A stretch of 64,000 nucleotides of DNA from Deltaproteobacteria bacterium (GTDB taxonomy: Bacteria > Myxococcota_A > UBA9160 > UBA4427). The notes under the pieces were generated by a model that was given only the letters and a program-made list of their open reading frames with translations, searched no databases and was not told the DNA's origin. How positions within the stretch are numbered: the first letter of the stretch is position 1; each line of letters opens with the position of its first letter. The stretch lies in assembly GCA_029261855.1 (NCBI GenBank), contig JAJDAN010000048.1, positions 1-64,000 of the forward strand, written 5' to 3'. Shown in pieces: positions 22,846-33,313 of this stretch. The position numbers and the translations under genes are program-made.

Positions 22846-23808
22846 TCAGCGACCGCCCAGCTTGCGCCGGATCTCCTCCTCCATGCTGCGGACCGCCGGC
22901 CCTGCGTGCTGATCCTTGAGCGTCTGAAGTCGGGGGTGACCCGCCTGACTCTCGGCGTCCCATTCATCCGCGAAGCGGCCCGATTCGATGTCGTCCGCCA
23001 GTGCTCGCATGCGGGCAGCGACATCGAGATGATCGAACGAACCGCGTCGCGACAGCTGGCCGTACTGGCTGGTGGGTGAGTGAAGCTCCAGCTGTTCGAC
23101 GAAGCCTACCTCGCGCAACAGTCGGTAGTTCCGCTCGACCTCGCCCGACAGATACAGTTCGGTCATGATCGCCTCCATCGGGATGCCGTGAGACAACATG
23201 GTGATCACGAAGGCCTGATTGACGTGGGTGAGGGCGGGCGACAGCAGCTGCTCCACCGACAGGTCGAGAAGGGCTTCCTGCTTCGGTGTCAGCTCGATGC
23301 CTCCCCGCGCGAGGCCGCCGATGGCCCTCGCGATCGCCAGCAGTCGCGGCCAGGCGGTGTCCGTCGCGTCGTGGTGCACGCCGACGGCCGTGATGTAGCC
23401 GACTCCTTCTTCGTAACAGCGGCGCACCTCCGGGCCGAGCATGCGAGGCGCGATCATGCCGACGTCCCCTTGCGGGGTGAAGCGGTCGAAGGCGAGGGTG
23501 TAGCCGCTGGCGACGATGCTGAGGGTATGTGGGCTCGGCGTCAGGGGCAGTCCCGGGATCGCATCGTCCGGGACCAGCACGCACAAGATGTCGGCATCGC
23601 CGGCGGCCTCGATCTCCTCCACCGCGAAACCGTCTTCCTCGGCGCGTCTTCGCGTGTGGTCCGCGCGCACGCAGACGCGCACCGCGACGCCGGAGTCCCG
23701 CAGGTTCAGCGCCCAGGAGCGGCCCTGGTTGCCGTACCCGACCACGACGACGCGTTGCCCGTCGAGGTTTCCAGGGTCGGCATCGTCGTCGTAGAAGATC
23801 CGCGTCAC
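22846..23808 (-). CDS. ketol-acid reductoisomerase-like protein
   Basis: The 320-residue protein has a Rossmann domain (VVVVGYGNQGRSWALNL near residue 22) and a helical domain recalling ketol-acid reductoisomerase (KARI, IlvC). Family features kept are MIAPRMLGPEVRRCYEEG near 125, DLSVEQLL near 185 (the Asp and Glu metal ligands of KARI DLFGEQ), MEAIMTELYLSGEVERNY near 215, and SPTSQYGQLSRRG near 248 (KARI SNTAEYG). The KARI Lys in APKGPG is Arg here. No ilvB, ilvN, leuA or ilvD gene is nearby, so branched-chain amino acid synthesis is not implied and a diverged reductase is more likely. The GTG start follows GGAG; a TTG six codons earlier is an alternative. Confidence 0.82.
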   Translation of the reverse strand: MTRIFYDDDADPGNLDGQRVVVVGYGNQGRSWALNLRDSGVAVRVCVRADHTRRRAEEDGFAVEEIEAAGDADILCVLVPDDAIPGLPLTPSPHTLSIVASGYTLAFDRFTPQGDVGMIAPRMLGPEVRRCYEEGVGYITAVGVHHDATDTAWPRLLAIARAIGGLARGGIELTPKQEALLDLSVEQLLSPALTHVNQAFVITMLSHGIPMEAIMTELYLSGEVERNYRLLREVGFVEQLELHSPTSQYGQLSRRGSFDHLDVAARMRALADDIESGRFADEWDAESQAGHPRLQTLKDQHAGPAVRSMEEEIRRKLGGR

Positions 23809-23849
23809 GCAAGCTCCGTTGTGCAAGGTCCGTCCTGCAAGGTCTGTCC
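23808..23849 (-). repeat. 14-bp tandem repeats covering the KARI-like ribosome binding site
   Basis: Read on the minus strand, GGACAGACCTTGCA and GGACGGACCTTGCA stand in tandem (23849-23822) and a third, degenerate unit CAACGGAGCTTGCG (23821-23808) contains the Shine-Dalgarno GGAG and the first base of the GTG start. Changes in copy number would alter the leader without touching the coding frame. Confidence 0.7.
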
Positions 23850-24635: not shown

Positions 24636-25565
24636 GGCGGCGAGTGACTCGCTGCTGGTGAGGAAGCGCCCGATCCTCTCGTGCGCGTCGACCAGGATGC
24701 CGAGGTGGTTGCGGCCCGGGACGATCTCCCAGGTGCTGCTCGTCTGGACGCCGGCGGCCAGAGGCCCGTAGGCGACGACGCGATCGGGCGCGAAGAGTTC
24801 GTCGCCGTCGCCGATCCACAGACCGAAGGGCCGATCGAGCGATGCGAACTGGTCGCGCGGAGCTCGCGGCGTGAGTCCGTTGGCGAAGTGGACCGTGTTC
24901 GACGCGACCATGCTCGGGTCGTTCTCGAGCACCTCGGGCGGGTAGCGGAAGCGCACCGCGGGATAGTGCCCCATCGCGAAGCCACCGGTCATGCCGTTGA
25001 GGACGAAGGGCGCGAGTCGTACGTCGACGAAGGCCGGGCGGTCGTCGTCCGCGCTCTCGGTCCTGGAGCGCTCGGTCTTGGACCGAAACCCGAGCTGCGG
25101 AGAAAGGAAGACGTAACCGTCGACCGGCAGGCGCTGCTTCCAGCTGGCGTAGTTGAGGCTCAAGCCGGCGCCCGACGAATGGCCCCCGACGAAGACGGGC
25201 AGGCCGGGGTGGGCCTCGCGGGCTCGGGCGACGAACGCCCGGACGTCGTGCCACAGCTGCTCGGGGGAGGGCGCGTCTCCGCGCGGCCCGCTGGAGTGGC
25301 CGTGGCCGCGCAGGTCCGGGGTCCACGCCGCGATGTCGAAATCGGTCTGCAGACCCCGGCCCACGAGGGGATAGCCCGCGCCCGAATGCGCGCCTCCGCC
25401 GTGATGGAAGATCAGGACCGCGGCAGGCGTCTGGGGTTCGTAGCGCCGGTAGGCCAGGGCGACCCCGTCGCTGGCCGCCAGCGTCTCGATCGGCGCCGCC
25501 TCGGCGGTGTCGGCTGCGGCGAGCTCTGCGAACGAGAAAGGTTCGCGGGCGCGATCCGCCGTCAC
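24633..25565 (-). CDS. alpha/beta hydrolase
   Basis: The 310-residue protein has the alpha/beta hydrolase core: an oxyanion strand VLIFHHGGGAHSGAGYPL near residue 52, TPDLRGHGHSSGPRGD near 82, the nucleophile elbow PVFVGGHSSGAGLSLNYAS near 125 with Ser in GHSSG, an acidic residue in LWIGDGDELFAPDRVV near 250 and the His in VPGRNHLGILVD near 285. It is of the lysophospholipase/monoacylglycerol-lipase style and has no signal peptide. The start is GTG overlapping the stop of the upstream HtrA-type gene (GTGA), so the two are probably one operon. The stop lies at the edge of the repeat-rich terminator. The natural ester or amide substrate is unknown. Confidence 0.92.
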   Translation of the reverse strand: MTADRAREPFSFAELAAADTAEAAPIETLAASDGVALAYRRYEPQTPAAVLIFHHGGGAHSGAGYPLVGRGLQTDFDIAAWTPDLRGHGHSSGPRGDAPSPEQLWHDVRAFVARAREAHPGLPVFVGGHSSGAGLSLNYASWKQRLPVDGYVFLSPQLGFRSKTERSRTESADDDRPAFVDVRLAPFVLNGMTGGFAMGHYPAVRFRYPPEVLENDPSMVASNTVHFANGLTPRAPRDQFASLDRPFGLWIGDGDELFAPDRVVAYGPLAAGVQTSSTWEIVPGRNHLGILVDAHERIGRFLTSSESLAA

Positions 25566-26647
25566 TCGATCTCCTGCAGGCGCATGTTCTTCTCGAACTG
25601 CTTTCCGCCGCGCACGTAGCGGACACGGATGGTCTCGCCCGGTTGGCGACCATCGAGCGCCTGGTACAGATCGTCGAAGGTGCGGATGTTGTCATCGCCG
25701 ATCCCGATGATGACGTCGTACGACGTCACCGTTCCGCGCGGGTCCACGGTCATGGACAGCAGCCCGGCCTGGGCGGCAGGGCTGTCCGGATACACCTCGC
25801 GAACGATCACGCCTTCGATGTTCCAGCGGCGGGCGTACATGTCCGGGAGGATCCGCACCCCGAGGCCGGCTCGGCGCACCTTCCCGAACTCGATGAGTTG
25901 CGGGACGATGCGCTCGATGGTGTCGATCGGGACCGCGAATCCGATGCCGGCGCTTTGACCCGAACGGCTCACGATCTGCGTGTTGACGCCAACCATGCGT
26001 CCCTTCGAATCGAGCAGCGGCCCGCCCGAATTGCCGGGGTTGATCGAGGCGTCGGTCTGGATGACGTCTTCGATGGTCGTTCCCGCGATGGACTGGATCT
26101 CCCGACCGAGAGCGCTGATCACCCCGACGGTCAGCGTGTGGTCGAGACCGAAGGGATTGCCGATGGCGAGCACTTCCTGGCCGACCACCAGGTTGGCCGA
26201 ACGACCACGTGTGACCGGCGCCAGACGTGCGGGGTTCACATCGAGCTTGAGGACCGCCAGGTCTTTGTTGGCGTCCCAGCCCACCACCTGTGCGGGATGG
26301 ACCGAGCCATCCTTCAGCGTGACGGAGAAAGCGTTCCCGGCCTGGATTACGTGGAAGTTGGTCAGGACATGGCCCTGATCGTCCCAGACGACGCCCGACC
26401 CCGTGTTCTGTGGAACCTTCGTGGCGTTGAAGGTGCGCACGCTGCGCTGGACGCGTTCGTTCGTGACGAACACCACCGAGTCGGCCGCCTTGCGGAAGAC
26501 CTCGATGGTGTTGCGTTCGTGGCCCAGCACGTAGTCCGGGATGGGGGGGTAATCGGCGGCTGACGCCGCAGGCGCAGACGCGATCATCGCCCCCTGCATC
26601 GCCATCGCCGCAATCCACACGAGCTTGCCGGTTGTCGTCGGGAACAT
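25562..26647 (-). CDS. HtrA/DegP-type periplasmic serine protease with one PDZ domain
   Basis: The 361-residue precursor has a signal peptide (hydrophobic stretch to about residue 30, ASAPAASAADY). The trypsin-like domain has the full triad: His99 in LTNFHVIQ, Asp129 in DANKDLAVLKL and Ser207 in NPGNSGGPLL. A single PDZ domain follows at about 255-355 (VYPDSPAAQAGLLS, VIIGIGDDNIRTFDDLYQAL). One PDZ domain and this length fit the DegS/HtrA-like class that degrades or senses misfolded envelope proteins. It heads a two-gene operon with the alpha/beta hydrolase and is divergent, across 121 bases, from the sigma-factor fusion gene, a suggestive neighbour for an envelope-stress protease. Confidence 0.95.
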   Translation of the reverse strand: MFPTTTGKLVWIAAMAMQGAMIASAPAASAADYPPIPDYVLGHERNTIEVFRKAADSVVFVTNERVQRSVRTFNATKVPQNTGSGVVWDDQGHVLTNFHVIQAGNAFSVTLKDGSVHPAQVVGWDANKDLAVLKLDVNPARLAPVTRGRSANLVVGQEVLAIGNPFGLDHTLTVGVISALGREIQSIAGTTIEDVIQTDASINPGNSGGPLLDSKGRMVGVNTQIVSRSGQSAGIGFAVPIDTIERIVPQLIEFGKVRRAGLGVRILPDMYARRWNIEGVIVREVYPDSPAAQAGLLSMTVDPRGTVTSYDVIIGIGDDNIRTFDDLYQALDGRQPGETIRVRYVRGGKQFEKNMRLQEIE

Positions 26648-26768
26648 CGGGCGAGGAGTCTAGTCGACCGGCTCCGGGGTGGGAGCCCGGCCCATCAGAT
26701 CGTGTGCGCCGCCTCCGGCCGCCTGCGGCAAGAAAGGCCTCTCGTCGCGGTAACCTTCAGGGCTCGAG

Positions 26769-28931
26769 GTGGGTCTTCTTCGTGTGAGCAGCCGAGACGA
26801 CACAACTGGCCAGTCCTCCGCAGTCGCAGACTGGGTCGAAGCCGCGATCGCCGGCGACGCCGCCGCCTTCGATGCCCTGGTTCGTCGCTTCCAGGACATG
26901 GCCGTGGGGACCGCCTACGGCTGGCTCCGCGACCTGGAACAGGCGGAGGACGCCGCCCAGGAGGCCTTCATCGAGGTTCATCGGAACCTGGATCGCATCG
27001 TCGACACGGCGGCGTTTCCCGGATTCCTGCGTCGGGTCGTTCTCAAACACTGCGATCGGCGAACCCGGGGTGCGGCCCGACGCTTCGTGCCAGCGGAGGC
27101 GGACATTCCCGACGCGCGAAACGATGCTGCGGCGTCGCTCGTCGAACGCGAAGACCAGGTGCGCGTTCGGGCCGCCCTCGAGGGGCTGCCCCGAGACGAA
27201 CGTCTGGCGGTGTCGCTCCACTATCTCGGGGGCCTGACCCAGGTCGAGGTGGCGGACTGGCTCGAGCTGCCGCTCTCGACCGTCAAGAAGCGGCTTCACA
27301 CCGCACGCGGAAGGATCCGCGTTGCCATGGAGACCCTCGTGGACCAGACATTCGAATCGATGCGACCGTCGCGAGACCAGGTGTTCTCGGACACGATCCG
27401 GCTCTTTCTCGCGATTCGCGAAGGCGATCTCGAGAGCGTCACCTCCCTGCTCGAGCGCGATCCCGCGCTCTGTGAGGTGGACGAGCGTTGGTCGGAAGAG
27501 CTGACCCGACTGCACGGTCTGCCCGCGGTGAACGGCGGCACGCCCCTCGTTCGCGCCGCCGAGCGCGACCAGGTGGAGATGATCGACCTGCTGCTCGCGC
27601 ACGGCGCACAGGTCGATCGTTGTTGTCCCTGCGCCGGGGCAGAGAGTCCCCTGTGGGCCGCGGTTGCGAGCGGCAAGCGTCGCGCGGCGGAGCGGCTGCT
27701 CGCCGCGGGAGCCGATCCCGACGCCGCGAGCTTCGGTGGCCACGCGCCGCTCCACGTGGCCGCGTTGCGCGGCTTCGATGACATCGTCGAGCTGCTGTGC
27801 GAAGCGGGGGCGGACGGCGACCGCCGGGATCTCCACGGCCGCACGCCCGGGGACTGGGCGCGGCTCAAGGGGCGGAAGGCGATCGCCGAGCGATTGGACG
27901 AGCGCTTTCCCGGGTCGGCGCCCCAGGGAGACGAGCAACCCGTGCATCCCCGCAATGCACGCCGGACAGGGCTCGGCACCGGGATCAAGGCGCTCGACCT
28001 GTTCGCGCCCTTCGAGCCAGGCTCCCTGGTGTACACACGCTACGACGCTGGTATGGGGGCGATCGTGCTGCTGGCGGAGCTTTCCAGTCGCTGGTCGCAC
28101 GCCCAGCGCGGCGCGGGTGCGGCGGTCGTCTGGGTGGGTTGGGAGCGACAGCCGAGCGACCTCGCCGAGATGCAGCACGCCTTCGCGGAGCTCGATCTCG
28201 ACGGACCGGTGCGGTTGGTCTGGAGCCCTGCTGCAGAAGACGAAGACGCGCGTCGCCAGACGCTGGCGCGCGCGGTGCGCACGGCGAACGGGCTCGCGGC
28301 GGACGACGGCGTCGACCCGTTGCTGGTCGTGTTCGCGCAGCCCGGACGCTGGGGCGAGATCGAGGCGGCACTTCCGCTGCTCGGCAACCGTTCCGGGAGC
28401 GCGACGCTCACCACCCTCGTAGCGGAGCGCTACGGCGACCCCGCTGCCGACGATCGTCCGCTCCCGTCTCCCTTCGACGCGCGGATCTGCTTCGACCCGA
28501 AGCTGGCTGCGCTGGGGCACTTCCCGGCGATCCACCCCTTCCGCACCGCTTCCAGGCCGGGCTGCCTGGCGGAGCCGCTCGCGAGCCGGCACGAGCAGAT
28601 CGCGAAGGGTGCTTGCGCGCTGCTGGCCGAACACCGTCGTCTGGTCCCGGATTGCGGTGACGGGGACCCCGACGAGTTGAGCGACGAAGAGCAGCGAACC
28701 GTCGCCCGGGCGAGGCGTCTCCAGGCCTTCCTCACCCAGCCGTTCCAGGTTGCCGAGAGCTTCACCAGTCGCATCGGTCGCGGGCTGTTCGTCGAGGAGA
28801 CGCTGGCCGACGTCGAGGCGATCCTCGGCGGAGCCCTCGACGACGTCGACCTCGGTCGGGTGCCGTACCGCGGCGGGCTGCGGGACATCCTTGCAGACGC
28901 GTGTCAGGACGCGGTGCAGACCCCGCGGTAG
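26769..28931 (+). CDS. ECF sigma factor - ankyrin - F1-ATPase beta-like pseudo-ATPase fusion
   Basis: The 720-residue protein joins three parts. Residues about 22-100 are an ECF sigma-2 region (AEDAAQEAFIEVHRNLDRI) and about 130-190 a sigma-4 region (LTQVEVADWLELPLSTVKKR). Residues about 206-380 are ankyrin repeats (GGTPLVRAAERDQVEMIDLL, GHAPLHVAALRGFDDIVELL). Residues about 400-712 follow the F1-ATPase beta subunit: TGIKALDLFAPFEPG near 404, LAALGHFPAIHPFRTASR near 579 and DELSDEEQRTVARARRLQAF followed by LTQPFQVAESFT near 635-666. The beta P-loop GGAGVGKT is replaced by RYDAGMGA at 424-431 and the Walker B strand is altered, so ATP hydrolysis is unlikely. The GTG start is weakly supported; a GTG five codons on is possible. 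It presumably reprogrammes RNA polymerase under control of the C-terminal parts. Confidence 0.9.
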   Translation: MGLLRVSSRDDTTGQSSAVADWVEAAIAGDAAAFDALVRRFQDMAVGTAYGWLRDLEQAEDAAQEAFIEVHRNLDRIVDTAAFPGFLRRVVLKHCDRRTRGAARRFVPAEADIPDARNDAAASLVEREDQVRVRAALEGLPRDERLAVSLHYLGGLTQVEVADWLELPLSTVKKRLHTARGRIRVAMETLVDQTFESMRPSRDQVFSDTIRLFLAIREGDLESVTSLLERDPALCEVDERWSEELTRLHGLPAVNGGTPLVRAAERDQVEMIDLLLAHGAQVDRCCPCAGAESPLWAAVASGKRRAAERLLAAGADPDAASFGGHAPLHVAALRGFDDIVELLCEAGADGDRRDLHGRTPGDWARLKGRKAIAERLDERFPGSAPQGDEQPVHPRNARRTGLGTGIKALDLFAPFEPGSLVYTRYDAGMGAIVLLAELSSRWSHAQRGAGAAVVWVGWERQPSDLAEMQHAFAELDLDGPVRLVWSPAAEDEDARRQTLARAVRTANGLAADDGVDPLLVVFAQPGRWGEIEAALPLLGNRSGSATLTTLVAERYGDPAADDRPLPSPFDARICFDPKLAALGHFPAIHPFRTASRPGCLAEPLASRHEQIAKGACALLAEHRRLVPDCGDGDPDELSDEEQRTVARARRLQAFLTQPFQVAESFTSRIGRGLFVEETLADVEAILGGALDDVDLGRVPYRGGLRDILADACQDAVQTPR

Positions 28932-29542
28932 TGGACCCAGGCTTCTCGCAACCAGTCGTCTAGACGATCCCGGCGATCGTCGATCTGGGACACATGGCCG
29001 TGCACGGCTGCCGCGAACAGCGTGATCGGCCAGCTCCCGTTCGCGAGGGCGGACGGCCCGTCGCGCAGCCGTGTCCAGATCGGCGAGGTCGTCGCCTCGC
29101 GCCGATGCGCCATGAAGTAGGCGGTGATGCGCACTTCGCGCCCCCGGCGCTCGTAGGCGTAGTGGACGGGAATGCGCCCTTCGGTGGTGTCGAGAACGCC
29201 GGCTTCCACGTCGTCCGGCTCGTTGCGGCCGGGCAGCGCCATGGCGGGCTGCAGCAGCAGGTTCGGCAGGCCCTGTGTGCGGACGATGGAGACTGCGATT
29301 CCACCGGGTCGCTCGCTCGTACCGGACCAGCTTGCCGTGAGCCGGCCACGGTCGAGGTTCGTCGCTCGCGGGCCCTCGGTGTGAAGCACCAGCGGCGGAT
29401 CGAACGCGTTGGCATCGAGGAACTGCTCGGGCTGCGCGCACTCGTCGCGCGGAGCCCGCGTGCGGGCATAGAAGGTCCCGCCGAGAGCCAGCACCAGCAG
29501 CACGATCAAGGGCATCGCCCAGGCAGACGAGAACCGGGTCAA
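28904..29542 (-). CDS. membrane-anchored exosortase-associated protein (EpsI-like position)
   Basis: The 212-residue protein has one N-terminal membrane segment (MPLIVLLVLALGGTFYA) and a periplasmic domain with VSIVRTQGLPNLLLQPAMAL, RIPVHYAYERRGREVRITAY and ITLFAAAVHGHVSQIDD. It is coupled to the exosortase gene by a TTGA overlap and stands where EpsI (DUF3485) proteins usually stand in exosortase loci; the sequence itself is not a clear EpsI match. An ATG ten codons into the frame is an alternative start. Its 3' end overlaps the end of the convergent sigma-fusion gene by 28 bases. A role in processing or exporting exosortase substrates or polysaccharide is inferred from location only. Confidence 0.75.
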   Translation of the reverse strand: MTRFSSAWAMPLIVLLVLALGGTFYARTRAPRDECAQPEQFLDANAFDPPLVLHTEGPRATNLDRGRLTASWSGTSERPGGIAVSIVRTQGLPNLLLQPAMALPGRNEPDDVEAGVLDTTEGRIPVHYAYERRGREVRITAYFMAHRREATTSPIWTRLRDGPSALANGSWPITLFAAAVHGHVSQIDDRRDRLDDWLREAWVHYRGVCTAS

Positions 29543-30558
29543 AGCAACGCCCGCGCCAGCGGTGGCCGGTCCGCCACGAAGATCATCACGAGCAGCACGC
29601 CGAAGAAGGTCATGACCCCCGAGCCGGCATGCGCGGAGGTGTCGAGCAGGCTCGGATCGAGATACAGCGCGATCAACACGAGCAGGACGACGCGCACGGT
29701 GTTGGCAACGAAGGCCAGCGGAATCGCCGACAGGTAGACGATCCAGCGACGTCGCGGTGACGGACACAGGGTGCCCAGCAGCACGCTCATCGCCACCGCG
29801 GAGTACAGGGTCGCGAATCCGCTGCACGAGTTCGCGACCAGAAAGGTGGCGTCCGGGAGTTCGAGTAGCGAATGCTCGACGAGGGTCGGTACGCCGATTG
29901 CCGTCAGGATCGGGCCGACGGCATCGGCCGTTGCAGTGCGCAGGTACATCTGGCTCGCGAAAGAGTTCGGCAGCGGAACCATGAAGACGCCGAGGCAGAG
30001 CGGGAGTGCCAGGGCCCGTGCGCGGACCGGGCCGAGCAGGAGCAGGGCGAAGCCCGGCAGGCAGGTGACGATGCCGATCGCGGACAGGGTGCGCGTCTGG
30101 AGCACGCCGTCGACGACCATCATCAGCAAGCCGGGGACGACGAATGCGAAGCCCCATGCAGTGGGCTCGTCGGCGCACGGCTTCATGCGGCGCAGGATGT
30201 TGCGTCCGAGCAGGATCATGAGCACGGGAATCAGGAGCCCGTGCGTGTTGTGCCAGACGCTCCCGGTCCACTCGGCGTACATCCACGCGAAGGTGGGGGC
30301 CGCCGTCGCCGCGAAGAGTGCCCCGCAGAGCCAGACCGGGACAGGTACCTGCCATCCCGCCGACCGGGCTTCGGCGCCCGGCTTCCGCGATAGCCGCCAC
30401 CACAAGAACAGCGCGCCCGCGATGAATCCGGCGGCGAGGGAGGGTCCGCGTGCTGCCGGTGTGAGCGGTCCCTCGGAAACGAGGACTGCCACGAGCAGCA
30501 TCAGCGCCCAGTCTCTGGCGGCAGGGCGGCGAAGTTGGGTGCGACGAGGCTGTGACAT
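29539..30558 (-). CDS. exosortase (XrtA-like) transmembrane cysteine peptidase
   Basis: The 339-residue protein has about eight membrane segments and the exosortase active-site set in order: Cys near 245 in VANSCSGFATLYSAV, Arg near 287 in FVANTVRVVLLV and His near 310 in DTSAHAGSGVMTFFG. Exosortases cleave C-terminal PEP-CTERM-type signals of exported proteins, usually together with exopolysaccharide production. The start is uncertain: ATG at 30558 gives a normal N-terminus, while ATG at 30618 or GTG at 30630 would add about 20 residues encoded by GAGATG-type short repeats. It is followed by a coupled partner gene and preceded by DUF4105 and DUF3015 genes on the same strand. No PEP-CTERM protein was found in the window. 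Confidence 0.92.
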   Translation of the reverse strand: MSQPRRTQLRRPAARDWALMLLVAVLVSEGPLTPAARGPSLAAGFIAGALFLWWRLSRKPGAEARSAGWQVPVPVWLCGALFAATAAPTFAWMYAEWTGSVWHNTHGLLIPVLMILLGRNILRRMKPCADEPTAWGFAFVVPGLLMMVVDGVLQTRTLSAIGIVTCLPGFALLLLGPVRARALALPLCLGVFMVPLPNSFASQMYLRTATADAVGPILTAIGVPTLVEHSLLELPDATFLVANSCSGFATLYSAVAMSVLLGTLCPSPRRRWIVYLSAIPLAFVANTVRVVLLVLIALYLDPSLLDTSAHAGSGVMTFFGVLLVMIFVADRPPLARALL

Positions 30559-30718
30559 GAGGTGCGAGATGGAGTGCGAGATGCGAGATGGGACGGCTGG
30601 GGAGGCGCCGCCAAACATCGCACAACCCACCGCCTGCGTAACTCCCTGAAAGGCTCCTCTTTCTCAGGCGGCAGAACGGCGCGTCGGGTTGAGGGGAGGC
30701 GCAGGGGCGACGCGAAGC

Positions 30719-32701
30719 CTAGAAATAGAAGGCGAGGGCGAGCGAGGCCTCGAGCCAGCCGTCTCCGTCGATGCGGTTGACCTGCACCCCGAGCAGCAAC
30801 GAGGCCGGCCCGGTCAGTCGGATGCGTTGCTCGACACCCGCTCGGTACCAGGTCGTGCGATCGCCTGCGAGAAAGCGCGTGATGCCCGCATGCACGTGTG
30901 TCCTCAGCCTGTCGCCGGCGCTATCGAGGCTCGCGCCGACGCTGGCACCGGGTCCGAATGCGACGTCGTCTCGAAGGGCGGAGCCGACGTCCAGGGTGAC
31001 CTTGCCCATGGCGTAGAGCGACAGGACCTGGAAGGGGGACGCGGCCAGGCCGATGCCCCCGTTGGTTCGCCAGACGTACTTCTCGTCGAAGTCGTCGCCG
31101 GGGCTGGGGTCGGCCATCAGTCGCGTGCGCAAGCCCGTGTCGAACTTCCAGGCGACCGGTCGCAAGAAGCGATCGCGCGGACTCAGCGACGCGACGTCGA
31201 GGACGACGAGCTCTTCGAGCCGGACCCGGCTCCGCTCGGGCTCGTAGCGAATCCGCGTGTCGAGGACCGAAACACGGTTGGCCGCGGCGTGCCCTTCGGC
31301 CGGGTCGAGCAGGTCGTGGAGCGCGGGGCGGATCCGCAGCTCGACGTAACCGTCTCCATCGCGAACGCCCCCGCCCAGGCCGATCAGACTCGTGCCGTGT
31401 CCACGGTCTGGACGCGTTTCCTTGCGATCCGGCGAGGGCGTCTCTTCCTCCATGCGTCCGAGCCGGCTGCGCGCGACGAGCAGGTCGCGCGAGCGACCAC
31501 GCGCTGCTGCGGCGTCGACCCGCCCGGTCAGGGCGTCGTACTTGAGCGCCTCGTAGGCGACGCCGAGCACCCGGGCCTGGGCGGCGGCAGGCAGGGCCGC
31601 CAGGCGCGCATCGTCGGGCGACGCGTCCCCCGCCGAGAGGTCGAGGGCGAGGCTGCGCTCGTCCCCGCTGAGACGTCCGCTCGTTTCGCGCAGCAGGGTC
31701 GCCGGCGACGGCCGGAAGGCGACGGCACGCACCCAGCCCGCGCGGTCCACCGCGCGCACCGTGTCCACGGGCAGGACCTGGGCCGGGAAACCGTCCCCCA
31801 GCCGCGAGTTCGGACGCGTGACTTCGAGCAGGCGAAGCAACTGATACGAGCAGTTGTCGTCGAAGAACCAGTAGGGGAAGTCGACGCCTCTCAGCTCCCA
31901 CAAGTGCATGGCGAAGAAGTCGATCTCCTCCGCGTCGAGGTCGAGGGTGTACTCCCAGATGTCGCGGTTCTCCCAGTCCGCATAGCGCTCGAGTCGCTCG
32001 TACCAGGGCCCCACGCCGAAGTAGCCGGGGTAGATGCCGATCGGTCCCTTGGCGAGATAGGTGAGGGCGCCGTCGTCGCCGATGTCGCCCGTGAAGTCGA
32101 CCGCGTAGCCGAGCAGTTGGCTGCCGTCGTCCTGTCCCCGGTCGAGGCGGAGCAGGGTGTGCCCGAACATCGAGGCCGGGTTCTCGAGGAAGGCCTCGGC
32201 AAAGATCAGCGTGAGCCGCTGGTCCGGCAGTCGCTCGCGCCAGACGAGGTAGTTCGCGCAATCGAGGCGCGGCAGTCGTGTGTGATCGAAGTCGAGCTGC
32301 GAGTCCAGCCAGTGGAAGCGAGCCACGAAGACGCACTGCGGCGGATCGTCGCTGCCGACTCGCGGCTCGGTTTCGAAGAAGGAACGGAGGGTCGCGACGA
32401 GTTCGCGCTCCGGGTTCCGCCTCCCCTCCGCGTCCAGGAAGAAGCGCGGGGAGGCCGCCTGGCTCTGCAACCCTCGCAGCGGACGCTGCTCGTAGTGGAG
32501 CAGGGCGCGCCAGGTCTCGCTCTCGTGCAGCCCCTGGGCGACGGCGCGCTGCGCGAGCGCGTCTGCGTAGTCGTTCCCCGAGTCGTCTGCGTCTGCACCG
32601 GCCGGAGCGCCGAAGGCGGCGAGCAGGCTACAGACAGCGACGATCAGGCCGCGCCGGACGCAAGAAGCGCCGCCCCGAGTCGACCCGGAGCGGCGCTTCA
32701 T
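30719..32701 (-). CDS. DUF4105 (Lnb-like) envelope protein with C-terminal beta-barrel-like part
   Basis: The 660-residue precursor has a signal peptide (CVRRGLIVAVCSLLAAFGAP). The N-terminal half contains the DUF4105 hallmarks LIFAEAFLENPASMFGHTLL near residue 165 and FFDDNCSYQLLRLLEVTRP near 280, with His and Cys in positions like those of papain-type folds; related Lnb proteins transacylate lipoproteins. The C-terminal half from about 430 alternates short strands (YVELRIRPALHDLLD, SLYAMGKVTLDVGSAL) and ends in phenylalanine (ALAFYF), as outer-membrane barrels do. It probably sits in the outer membrane. The DUF3015 gene is 42 bases upstream on the same strand and the exosortase gene is 160 bases downstream. 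Confidence 0.88.
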   Translation of the reverse strand: MKRRSGSTRGGASCVRRGLIVAVCSLLAAFGAPAGADADDSGNDYADALAQRAVAQGLHESETWRALLHYEQRPLRGLQSQAASPRFFLDAEGRRNPERELVATLRSFFETEPRVGSDDPPQCVFVARFHWLDSQLDFDHTRLPRLDCANYLVWRERLPDQRLTLIFAEAFLENPASMFGHTLLRLDRGQDDGSQLLGYAVDFTGDIGDDGALTYLAKGPIGIYPGYFGVGPWYERLERYADWENRDIWEYTLDLDAEEIDFFAMHLWELRGVDFPYWFFDDNCSYQLLRLLEVTRPNSRLGDGFPAQVLPVDTVRAVDRAGWVRAVAFRPSPATLLRETSGRLSGDERSLALDLSAGDASPDDARLAALPAAAQARVLGVAYEALKYDALTGRVDAAAARGRSRDLLVARSRLGRMEEETPSPDRKETRPDRGHGTSLIGLGGGVRDGDGYVELRIRPALHDLLDPAEGHAAANRVSVLDTRIRYEPERSRVRLEELVVLDVASLSPRDRFLRPVAWKFDTGLRTRLMADPSPGDDFDEKYVWRTNGGIGLAASPFQVLSLYAMGKVTLDVGSALRDDVAFGPGASVGASLDSAGDRLRTHVHAGITRFLAGDRTTWYRAGVEQRIRLTGPASLLLGVQVNRIDGDGWLEASLALAFYF

Positions 32702-32743
32702 GGATCCTCCCGCAGTTCTCTCGCTGCGAAGTCGGATCGCGAA

Positions 32744-33238
32744 TCAGCCGCGCGCGTAGCCGCGGAGTCTCGCGTCCTCTCGCAGCAGTCGATCGAGGTT
32801 CTCGAGCATCTCCCCGGCCGTCGTACCGCTGGTCGGAAACAGCGTCGCGAAGTGGGCCTGGGTGAAGCTCCCGAACGCCTCCCGGTCCTGGGGCGCGACC
32901 TCGAGCAAGGCCTGGAAGGCGGCCAGGGTCTCGCCTTTCCCGGTCGCCATGTCCGAGGCCAGGCGATCGAAGTTGCTGCCGGTGAAGTGGTCGATCTGGG
33001 CGGTCACCGTGTCCTGGCCGTTGCAGTTGACCAGCCCGAAGGTGATCGAGATCGACTGGAAGGTGATGCCGTTGGTGCTGGAGCCGAGGATCTTGTACCC
33101 GACGCCGCTGTTGCCCTCCATGAGCATGGTGCCGACGCCGCAGCCGATGTCGTTGTCAGCCAGCGCGGGCGCGCCGACCGCGATCGCGGCGATGGCGACG
33201 AACGTCGCGAGGACGCTGTTGCGGATGCTTCGAATCAC
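32744..33238 (-). CDS. DUF3015 family exported protein
   Basis: The 164-residue precursor starts VIRSIRNSVLATFVAIAAIA with a signal peptide cleaved near ALA-DND. The mature part begins NDIGCGVGTMLMEGNSG, then YKILGSSTNGITFQSISITF with a paired cysteine in LVNCNGQD, and a helical C-terminus (ASDMATGKGETLAAFQALLE); this is the DUF3015 pattern, small periplasmic proteins of unknown function. A GTG at 33238 follows GGGGGGT at a good distance and is preferred; a TTG five codons earlier is the alternative. It is the first gene before DUF4105 on the minus strand and is likely co-transcribed with it. Confidence 0.87.
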   Translation of the reverse strand: MIRSIRNSVLATFVAIAAIAVGAPALADNDIGCGVGTMLMEGNSGVGYKILGSSTNGITFQSISITFGLVNCNGQDTVTAQIDHFTGSNFDRLASDMATGKGETLAAFQALLEVAPQDREAFGSFTQAHFATLFPTSGTTAGEMLENLDRLLREDARLRGYARG

Positions 33239-33313
33239 TTGCTTACCCCCCAAGAAGGAAATGGAACGAACGAAGTCGAGTCGAAAGGCCGCAGGACGGC
33301 CTGCGCGCGCATC

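Follow-up and report, generated by a model that had tools for sequence, protein, structure and literature searches.

A family of ECF sigma factors carrying ankyrin repeats and a catalytically dead F1-ATPase beta derivative, with a predicted self-promoter

We describe here a gene (26769..28931, plus strand) for a sigma-ankyrin-pseudo F1-beta fusion protein, in which an ECF sigma factor is followed by ankyrin repeats and a C-terminal module related to the beta subunit of F1-ATPase. It lies in a window of 64 kb, positions 1-64000 of contig C48 in the 6.96 Mb draft genome of the host. Sequence profiles and structural modelling confirm that the module is a worn-down, catalytically dead derivative of F1-ATPase beta, and the homologues recovered elsewhere confirm that this is a real protein family and not a local fusion artefact. 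We infer sigma activity, in-cis control and ligand binding for this protein, and put at about 0.6 the probability that it is an autoregulated one-component ECF sigma factor that uses its tail as input. The tail is read as the input because a constant sigma domain and self-promoter are combined with variable tails and no anti-sigma factor. Likewise, the fusion protein has the structured C-terminal extension of a one-component sigma factor, and no anti-sigma-like gene was seen beside its gene.

The first-pass annotation had described one uninterrupted frame of 720 codons, and this holds. The coding signature is uniform: GC content by codon position changes little from the sigma part through the ankyrins and the nucleotide-binding domain (NBD) to the C-terminal part. 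In sliding windows along the whole ORF the gene's own frame always comes out best, with no frame switch; hence no frameshift is hidden in the gene. Translation probably starts at GTG 26784 (715 aa) rather than at the annotated GTG 26769, since the latter overlaps the predicted -10 element; with this start the mRNA would be almost leaderless. Residue numbers given here count from the called start (720 aa). Residues 20-190 form an intact ECF sigma factor, composed of sigma-70 region 2 (26877..27080, plus strand, residues 37-104; PF04542, 1.8e-8) and region 4 (27162..27320, plus strand, residues 132-184; PF08281, 4.9e-11; PF04545, 1.9e-9), all above the Pfam cut-offs, and lacking sigma3, the domain content of an ECF. 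The superfamily profile TIGR02937 scores 73 bits against a cut-off of 42.9. These regions had been proposed at about 22-190, together with four ankyrin-like repeats at about 206-380, for which Pfam finds 4-5 units (27384..27908, plus strand; Ank_2 PF12796, 2.8e-18; PF00023, 1.1e-16). A C-x-C motif in an ankyrin finger loop (C286 and C288; 27624..27632, plus strand) is kept in 6/7 ankyrin-type members, namely the window protein, L024, L025, L026, L027 and L047, and is missing from L028.

Several independent comparisons indicate that residues 404-712 derive from F1-ATPase beta. The atpD profile TIGR01039 matches the protein at 1e-23, phmmer against PDB sequences matches F1 beta (1.4e-24), and a Foldseek search with the AlphaFold2 model returns F1-type beta subunits for all of the best 50 PDB matches (top E 2.9e-16). 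The model was built on the eight-member family alignment and reaches a mean pLDDT of 77.5, with NBD and C-terminal domain ordered. Since PF00006 by itself stays under its cut-off (18.5 vs 29.5 bits), the assignment rests on the full-length beta models and on structure; the curated atpD cut-off is missed as well (83.9 vs 462.85 bits), and the profiles NF045858 and NF045934, of repurposed F1-like subunits, match weakly. The host's genuine atpA, atpD and rho are found on another contig, C32. Within the module we distinguish a degenerate NBD (27978..28568, plus strand, residues 404-600), RecA-like in the model and matching atpD columns 124-256 and 316 onward, and a C-terminal helical domain (28569..28904, plus strand, residues 601-712; i-E 7.5e-27), where the atpD profile runs to column 469. 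The helical domain includes the segments DELSDEEQ and LTQPFQVAESFT and is modelled mostly at pLDDT 77-95. The fold of both domains is that of F1 beta, and the original proposal of more than 300 residues collinear with ATP synthase beta was right about the origin, but the module is not a whole beta subunit. The atpD columns 257-315, about 60 positions with Walker B and the next loops, are missing and about 30 residues stand in their stead, and the N-terminal beta-barrel is absent, its place being occupied by the ankyrins.

Active-site columns were read from a MAFFT L-INS-i alignment of the family members with 32 real atpD sequences. At the site of GGAGVGKT the window protein has a dead P-loop, YDAGMGAI (28041..28064, plus strand, residues 425-432), and at the Walker A Lys/Thr, the catalytic Glu and the Walker B Asp it has A/I, R and a gap. 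The earlier description of the P-loop as RYDAGMGA, with a changed Walker B strand, was therefore correct in that the site is dead, but the equivalent segment is YDAGMGAI and the Walker B segment is deleted. The deletion of the Walker B/catch-loop segment is shared by nearly all members. Family-wide, the P-loop Lys is lost in 7/8 members, the catalytic Glu in 8/8 and the Walker B Asp in 7/8, and only L028 keeps the Lys, in a P-loop (GGPWVGKT) that fits GxxxxGKT, and a Walker-B-like Asp. From these residues, classical nucleotide binding by the window protein, whose beta-like part had been suggested to bind nucleotide weakly, is unlikely. As judged from the same alignment, the old nucleotide pocket has lost its phosphate side but still has its adenine-side aromatics. 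F585 (28521..28523, plus strand), at the adenine-stacking Tyr position that we take to be Tyr345 of bovine beta, is aromatic in 8/8 members, and F659 and F665 of the QPF..A..F motif (28743..28763, plus strand) are Phe in 8/8 and 6/8, respectively; the motif presumably corresponds to Phe418/Ala421/Phe424 of bovine beta, with F659 and F665 at Phe418 and Phe424. Of the 18 columns that are both aromatic and conserved in atpD, five remain so in six or more members, and the adenine pocket accounts for three of these five. The pocket columns are better preserved than the other columns conserved in atpD (P=0.007 in random draws of four conserved columns), in a test that is post hoc and whose three C-terminal columns belong to one motif. 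These columns could also be structural core.

The family is rare and patchy in its occurrence. The protein was not found in 24 other genomes of the same taxonomic family, while among 379 genomes surveyed across the phylum it turned up in other families; within the order it occurs in 4/80 genomes, one copy being cut by a contig end. Eight members were found besides the window protein. The sigma-ankyrin-beta order recurs in six of them, L024 (G204), L025 (G272, cut by the contig end), L026 (G142), L027 (G306), L028 (G324) and L047 (bacterium isolate 3_bin.68). A fusion made only in this genome, with separate sigma and beta-like genes in its relatives, is contradicted by these six genes. Two members have sigma and beta parts without ankyrins, L029 (G260), in which the blocks of the NBD and the C-terminal domain are retained, and L044, on an IMG/VR contig, the one member found in scans of viral contigs. 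Plasmid sequences searched with tblastn gave ordinary atpD matches and no full-length fusion homologue. The L044 contig (3300015264_000406) looks chimeric or like a prophage edge, in that phage-like genes of lower GC3 adjoin bacterial genes of high GC3 (the sigma-beta fusion and an ABC transporter ATPase). L044 matches the atpD profile in three pieces that include the N-terminal barrel (columns 4-99, i-E 5.6e-10), and tblastn covers nearly all of E. coli atpD; the barrel is detected by sequence in this member only, and the claim rests on the profile match, since the AlphaFold model leaves the barrel unresolved (pLDDT <50). L026 and L028 retain a last bit of the barrel in front of the NBD, their atpD matches beginning at columns 91/93; from this it appears most likely that an F1 beta was captured and that ankyrins took the place of its barrel.

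Phylogenetic analysis places all nine sigma domains inside one ECF clade of 27 sequences (support 99/87). Within this clade the beta-bearing sigma domains are not monophyletic; a single clade of them is rejected (AU p=0.009), as is one of the ankyrin type alone (p=0.016), and gain, loss or shuffling of tails on a constant sigma domain is consequently part of the history. The beta modules of the six complete ankyrin-type members group in a single clade (99/97), to be read with long-branch caution, as their branches measure 3-6 changes per site, whereas the median for all end branches is 0.09. The sister sigmas L048 and L062 have ankyrins alone as tail; L048 (5373-7925), from an Armatimonadetes, carries a long ankyrin array without a beta module and is nested among the beta-bearing sigmas. 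In the same clade, L052 (5719-7185), from an Actinomycetes MAG, has an ECF sigma whose tail is the cold-shock-like RNA-binding domain of Rho (PF07497, 4.5e-11), and L049, L050, L051, L053, L054, L056 and L096, mostly gammaproteobacterial, have C-terminal regions of about 420-490 aa. In L049, L051 and L056 Pfam finds the sigma domains only, and a PDB search with the L049 tail gave no clear relative. A further combination, an ECF sigma with an SsuA/NMT1-like substrate-binding domain (PF13379, 1.2e-28), was seen at L045 (4932-6398) on a contig classed as viral.

A candidate autogenous ECF promoter is located at 26749..26775 (plus strand), with a -35 element GGTAACC (26749-26755), a 15-bp spacer and a -10 element GGGTC (26771-26775). 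The pattern GGTAWCC-N15-GGGWC lies just upstream of 7/7 ankyrin-type genes with a spacing of exactly 15 bp, one mismatch in the -35 block occurring at L025, so that the ankyrin-type genes have the conserved blocks at fixed spacing that are expected of ECF promoters. A consensus derived from the window gene and L047 only is matched within one mismatch by the five other genes (shuffle control: mean 0.0045, max 1). In a PWM scan of the 64 kb window the predicted self-promoter scores highest (26.5, the next hit reaching 13.1), and GTAWCC-N15-GGGTCY has one exact match in the whole genome, at the fusion gene itself, one-mismatch matches being no commoner than those of a reversed-pattern control. 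At L029 and L044, the members without ankyrins, the promoter was not seen. The same promoter type is found upstream of sister sigmas with other tails, namely L050, L051, L053, L054, L056 and L096, with about 430 aa of no known domain, L052, with the Rho RNA-binding domain, and L055, and diverged versions occur at L049, L057, L060, L061, L063 and L066. This distribution, with the strict form occurring once in this 7 Mb genome, points to an autoregulated one-component sigma factor. Strict scans for a regulon gave no convincing target besides the fusion gene. Most matches elsewhere fall within coding ORFs and the reversed pattern, as control, is matched at least as often, and a regulon defined by this motif was therefore rejected. 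In G306, a GTATCC-N16-GGTCC sequence 2 bp before the start of a lipoprotein gene (C1289:5163-5189, L162) is a possible second target or due to chance.

The gene neighbourhood is not conserved. The divergent HtrA-type protease pointed out in the first-pass annotation is present (25562-26647, minus strand) as an ordinary protein with Trypsin_2 and PDZ domains, transcribed divergently from the fusion gene, but neither it nor the exosortase on the downstream side (29539-30630, minus strand; PF09721, 1.2e-42) recurs beside homologues. The exosortase is followed, at 30719-33253 (minus strand), by an Lnb_N/DUF7840-7843 protein and then by a DUF3015 protein. At 22846-23826 (minus strand) a ketol-acid reductoisomerase (KARI_N, KARI_C) is encoded, and no other branched-chain amino acid gene was noticed beside it. 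A matrixin-like gene lies downstream in G204 and L047 but not in the window, and no conserved operon partner could be identified. Secreted matrixin (M10)-like proteases directly follow the sigma gene at L127 (5159-6067, a weak match) and L047 (2383-3288, 10 bp away).

We propose that the sigma2/sigma4 part binds RNA polymerase and reads GGTAWCC-N15-GGGTCT, mainly at its own gene, while the ankyrin array and pseudo-F1-beta would stand in for an anti-sigma factor. The tail may keep the sigma factor inactive in cis, or position it; binding of a cytoplasmic ligand or partner would then let the sigma factor transcribe its own gene and create a positive feedback switch. The beta-derived module would no longer hydrolyse ATP; with its fold and adenine-side aromatic cluster kept and its phosphate side lost, it most likely offers a surface for sensing or docking, and what binds there may be a small molecule that carries adenine. 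A more elaborate history is doubtful but worth stating, namely that an ancestral ECF sigma captured a whole F1 beta, whose barrel gave way to ankyrins and whose phosphate side was stripped while the adenine pocket was kept, leaving a non-hydrolysing adenine-ligand sensor of a self-amplifying sigma. The probabilities attached to these and the following readings overlap, some being rivals and some more specific versions, and they do not sum to one.

It is possible that the tail is purely a protein-interaction scaffold with a vestigial pocket, a partner protein being bound by the ankyrins together with the helical domain derived from beta. Ankyrins are interaction modules, L048 and L062 do with ankyrins as their only tail, and the TPR tail of ECF42 sigma factors, proposed to bind a protein partner, is a precedent (PMC8999054). 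However, a scaffold leaves unexplained why the pocket aromatics outlast 13 other conserved aromatics. These aromatics, kept family-wide, and the P-loop and Walker-B-like Asp of L028 would suit a module that binds ATP or ADP without hydrolysis and reports adenylate levels to the sigma factor, but with the catalytic residues lost as described above, all three of them in the window protein, such a nucleotide sensor is unlikely. Even less is to be said for a coupling to energy state, in which the pseudo-beta docks on F1 (alpha, gamma or epsilon) or replaces beta in assembly intermediates, so that the ATP synthase releases or sequesters the sigma factor. The retained F1-beta fold is in line with it, as is the DELSEED segment, recognisable in the window protein (DELSDEEQ) and weakly in L029. 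In L024, L026, L027, L028, L044 and L047 this segment is deleted or unrecognisable, though, the Walker B/catch-loop deletion is nearly universal, the barrel that forms the hexamer crown is lost in the ankyrin type, the beta-like branches are exceptionally long, and ATP synthase genes occur near no family member. The earlier idea that the protein binds F1 alpha/gamma and couples energy state to transcription thus finds no support, and we consider it quite improbable. Patchy occurrence and very long branches might also suggest an artefactual fusion or misassembly, or a pseudogene in decay; six independent genomes or contigs with the same domain order, the uniform coding signature and the conserved promoter speak against this and refute the artefact, and we give either reading hardly any credence. 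The one-component sigma factor with its tail as input remains our preferred reading.

Pseudo-enzymes derived from ATP synthase subunits appear unreported in transcription factors in the literature and libraries searched, and the family suggests that a core energy enzyme has been recycled into a transcription control module. Fusion, barrel-bearing intermediate (L044), member with intact P-loop (L028) and a precise predicted promoter make it testable. The ECF clade occurs in several phyla and combines a common self-promoter with tails that can be exchanged, be it ankyrins, F1-beta, the Rho RNA-binding domain or the domain of about 430 aa. It offers a natural experiment in sensor exchange on one sigma core. 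As had been surmised, the sigma-ankyrin-F1-beta architecture was not found described in the family libraries and literature searched, whose coverage is partial, and its novelty is likely, not certain. ECF sigma factors with a C-terminal extension and no cognate anti-sigma gene are known, and the extension is thought to regulate in cis (PMC8999054). The fusion protein shares this layout of sigma2-sigma4 followed by a C-terminal module, but none of the tails in that review is ankyrin- or ATP-synthase-derived (PMC8999054). MzaA of the MZA anti-phage system (NF041931) is also annotated as sigma-70 and contains ankyrin repeats; here, in contrast, the domain order differs, a beta module is present and no MZA partner gene was noticed nearby. 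Matches to MzaA are limited to the ankyrins (L028 residues 273-345 to MzaA 18-90, and weakly, in PADLOC, L024), and the window protein has none in PADLOC. The Rho termination factor is a relative of F1 beta among RecA-like hexameric ATPases, and its RNA-binding domain sits on the sister sigma L052, but the window module matches F1 beta and not Rho in sequence and fold. Compared to AtpD (TIGR01039), the RecA-like NBD and the C-terminal helical domain are shared by profile and fold, while the fusion protein has ankyrins for the barrel, a shortened NBD without Walker A/B and catalytic Glu, and an added N-terminal sigma factor. Re-use of F1 beta outside the ATP synthase has a parallel in the Mycoplasma mobile gliding protein MMOB1670 of the G1-ATPase and in the F1-like beta MSC_0618; those proteins form F1-like assemblies in solved complexes, whereas here a catalytically dead beta is fused to a transcription factor.
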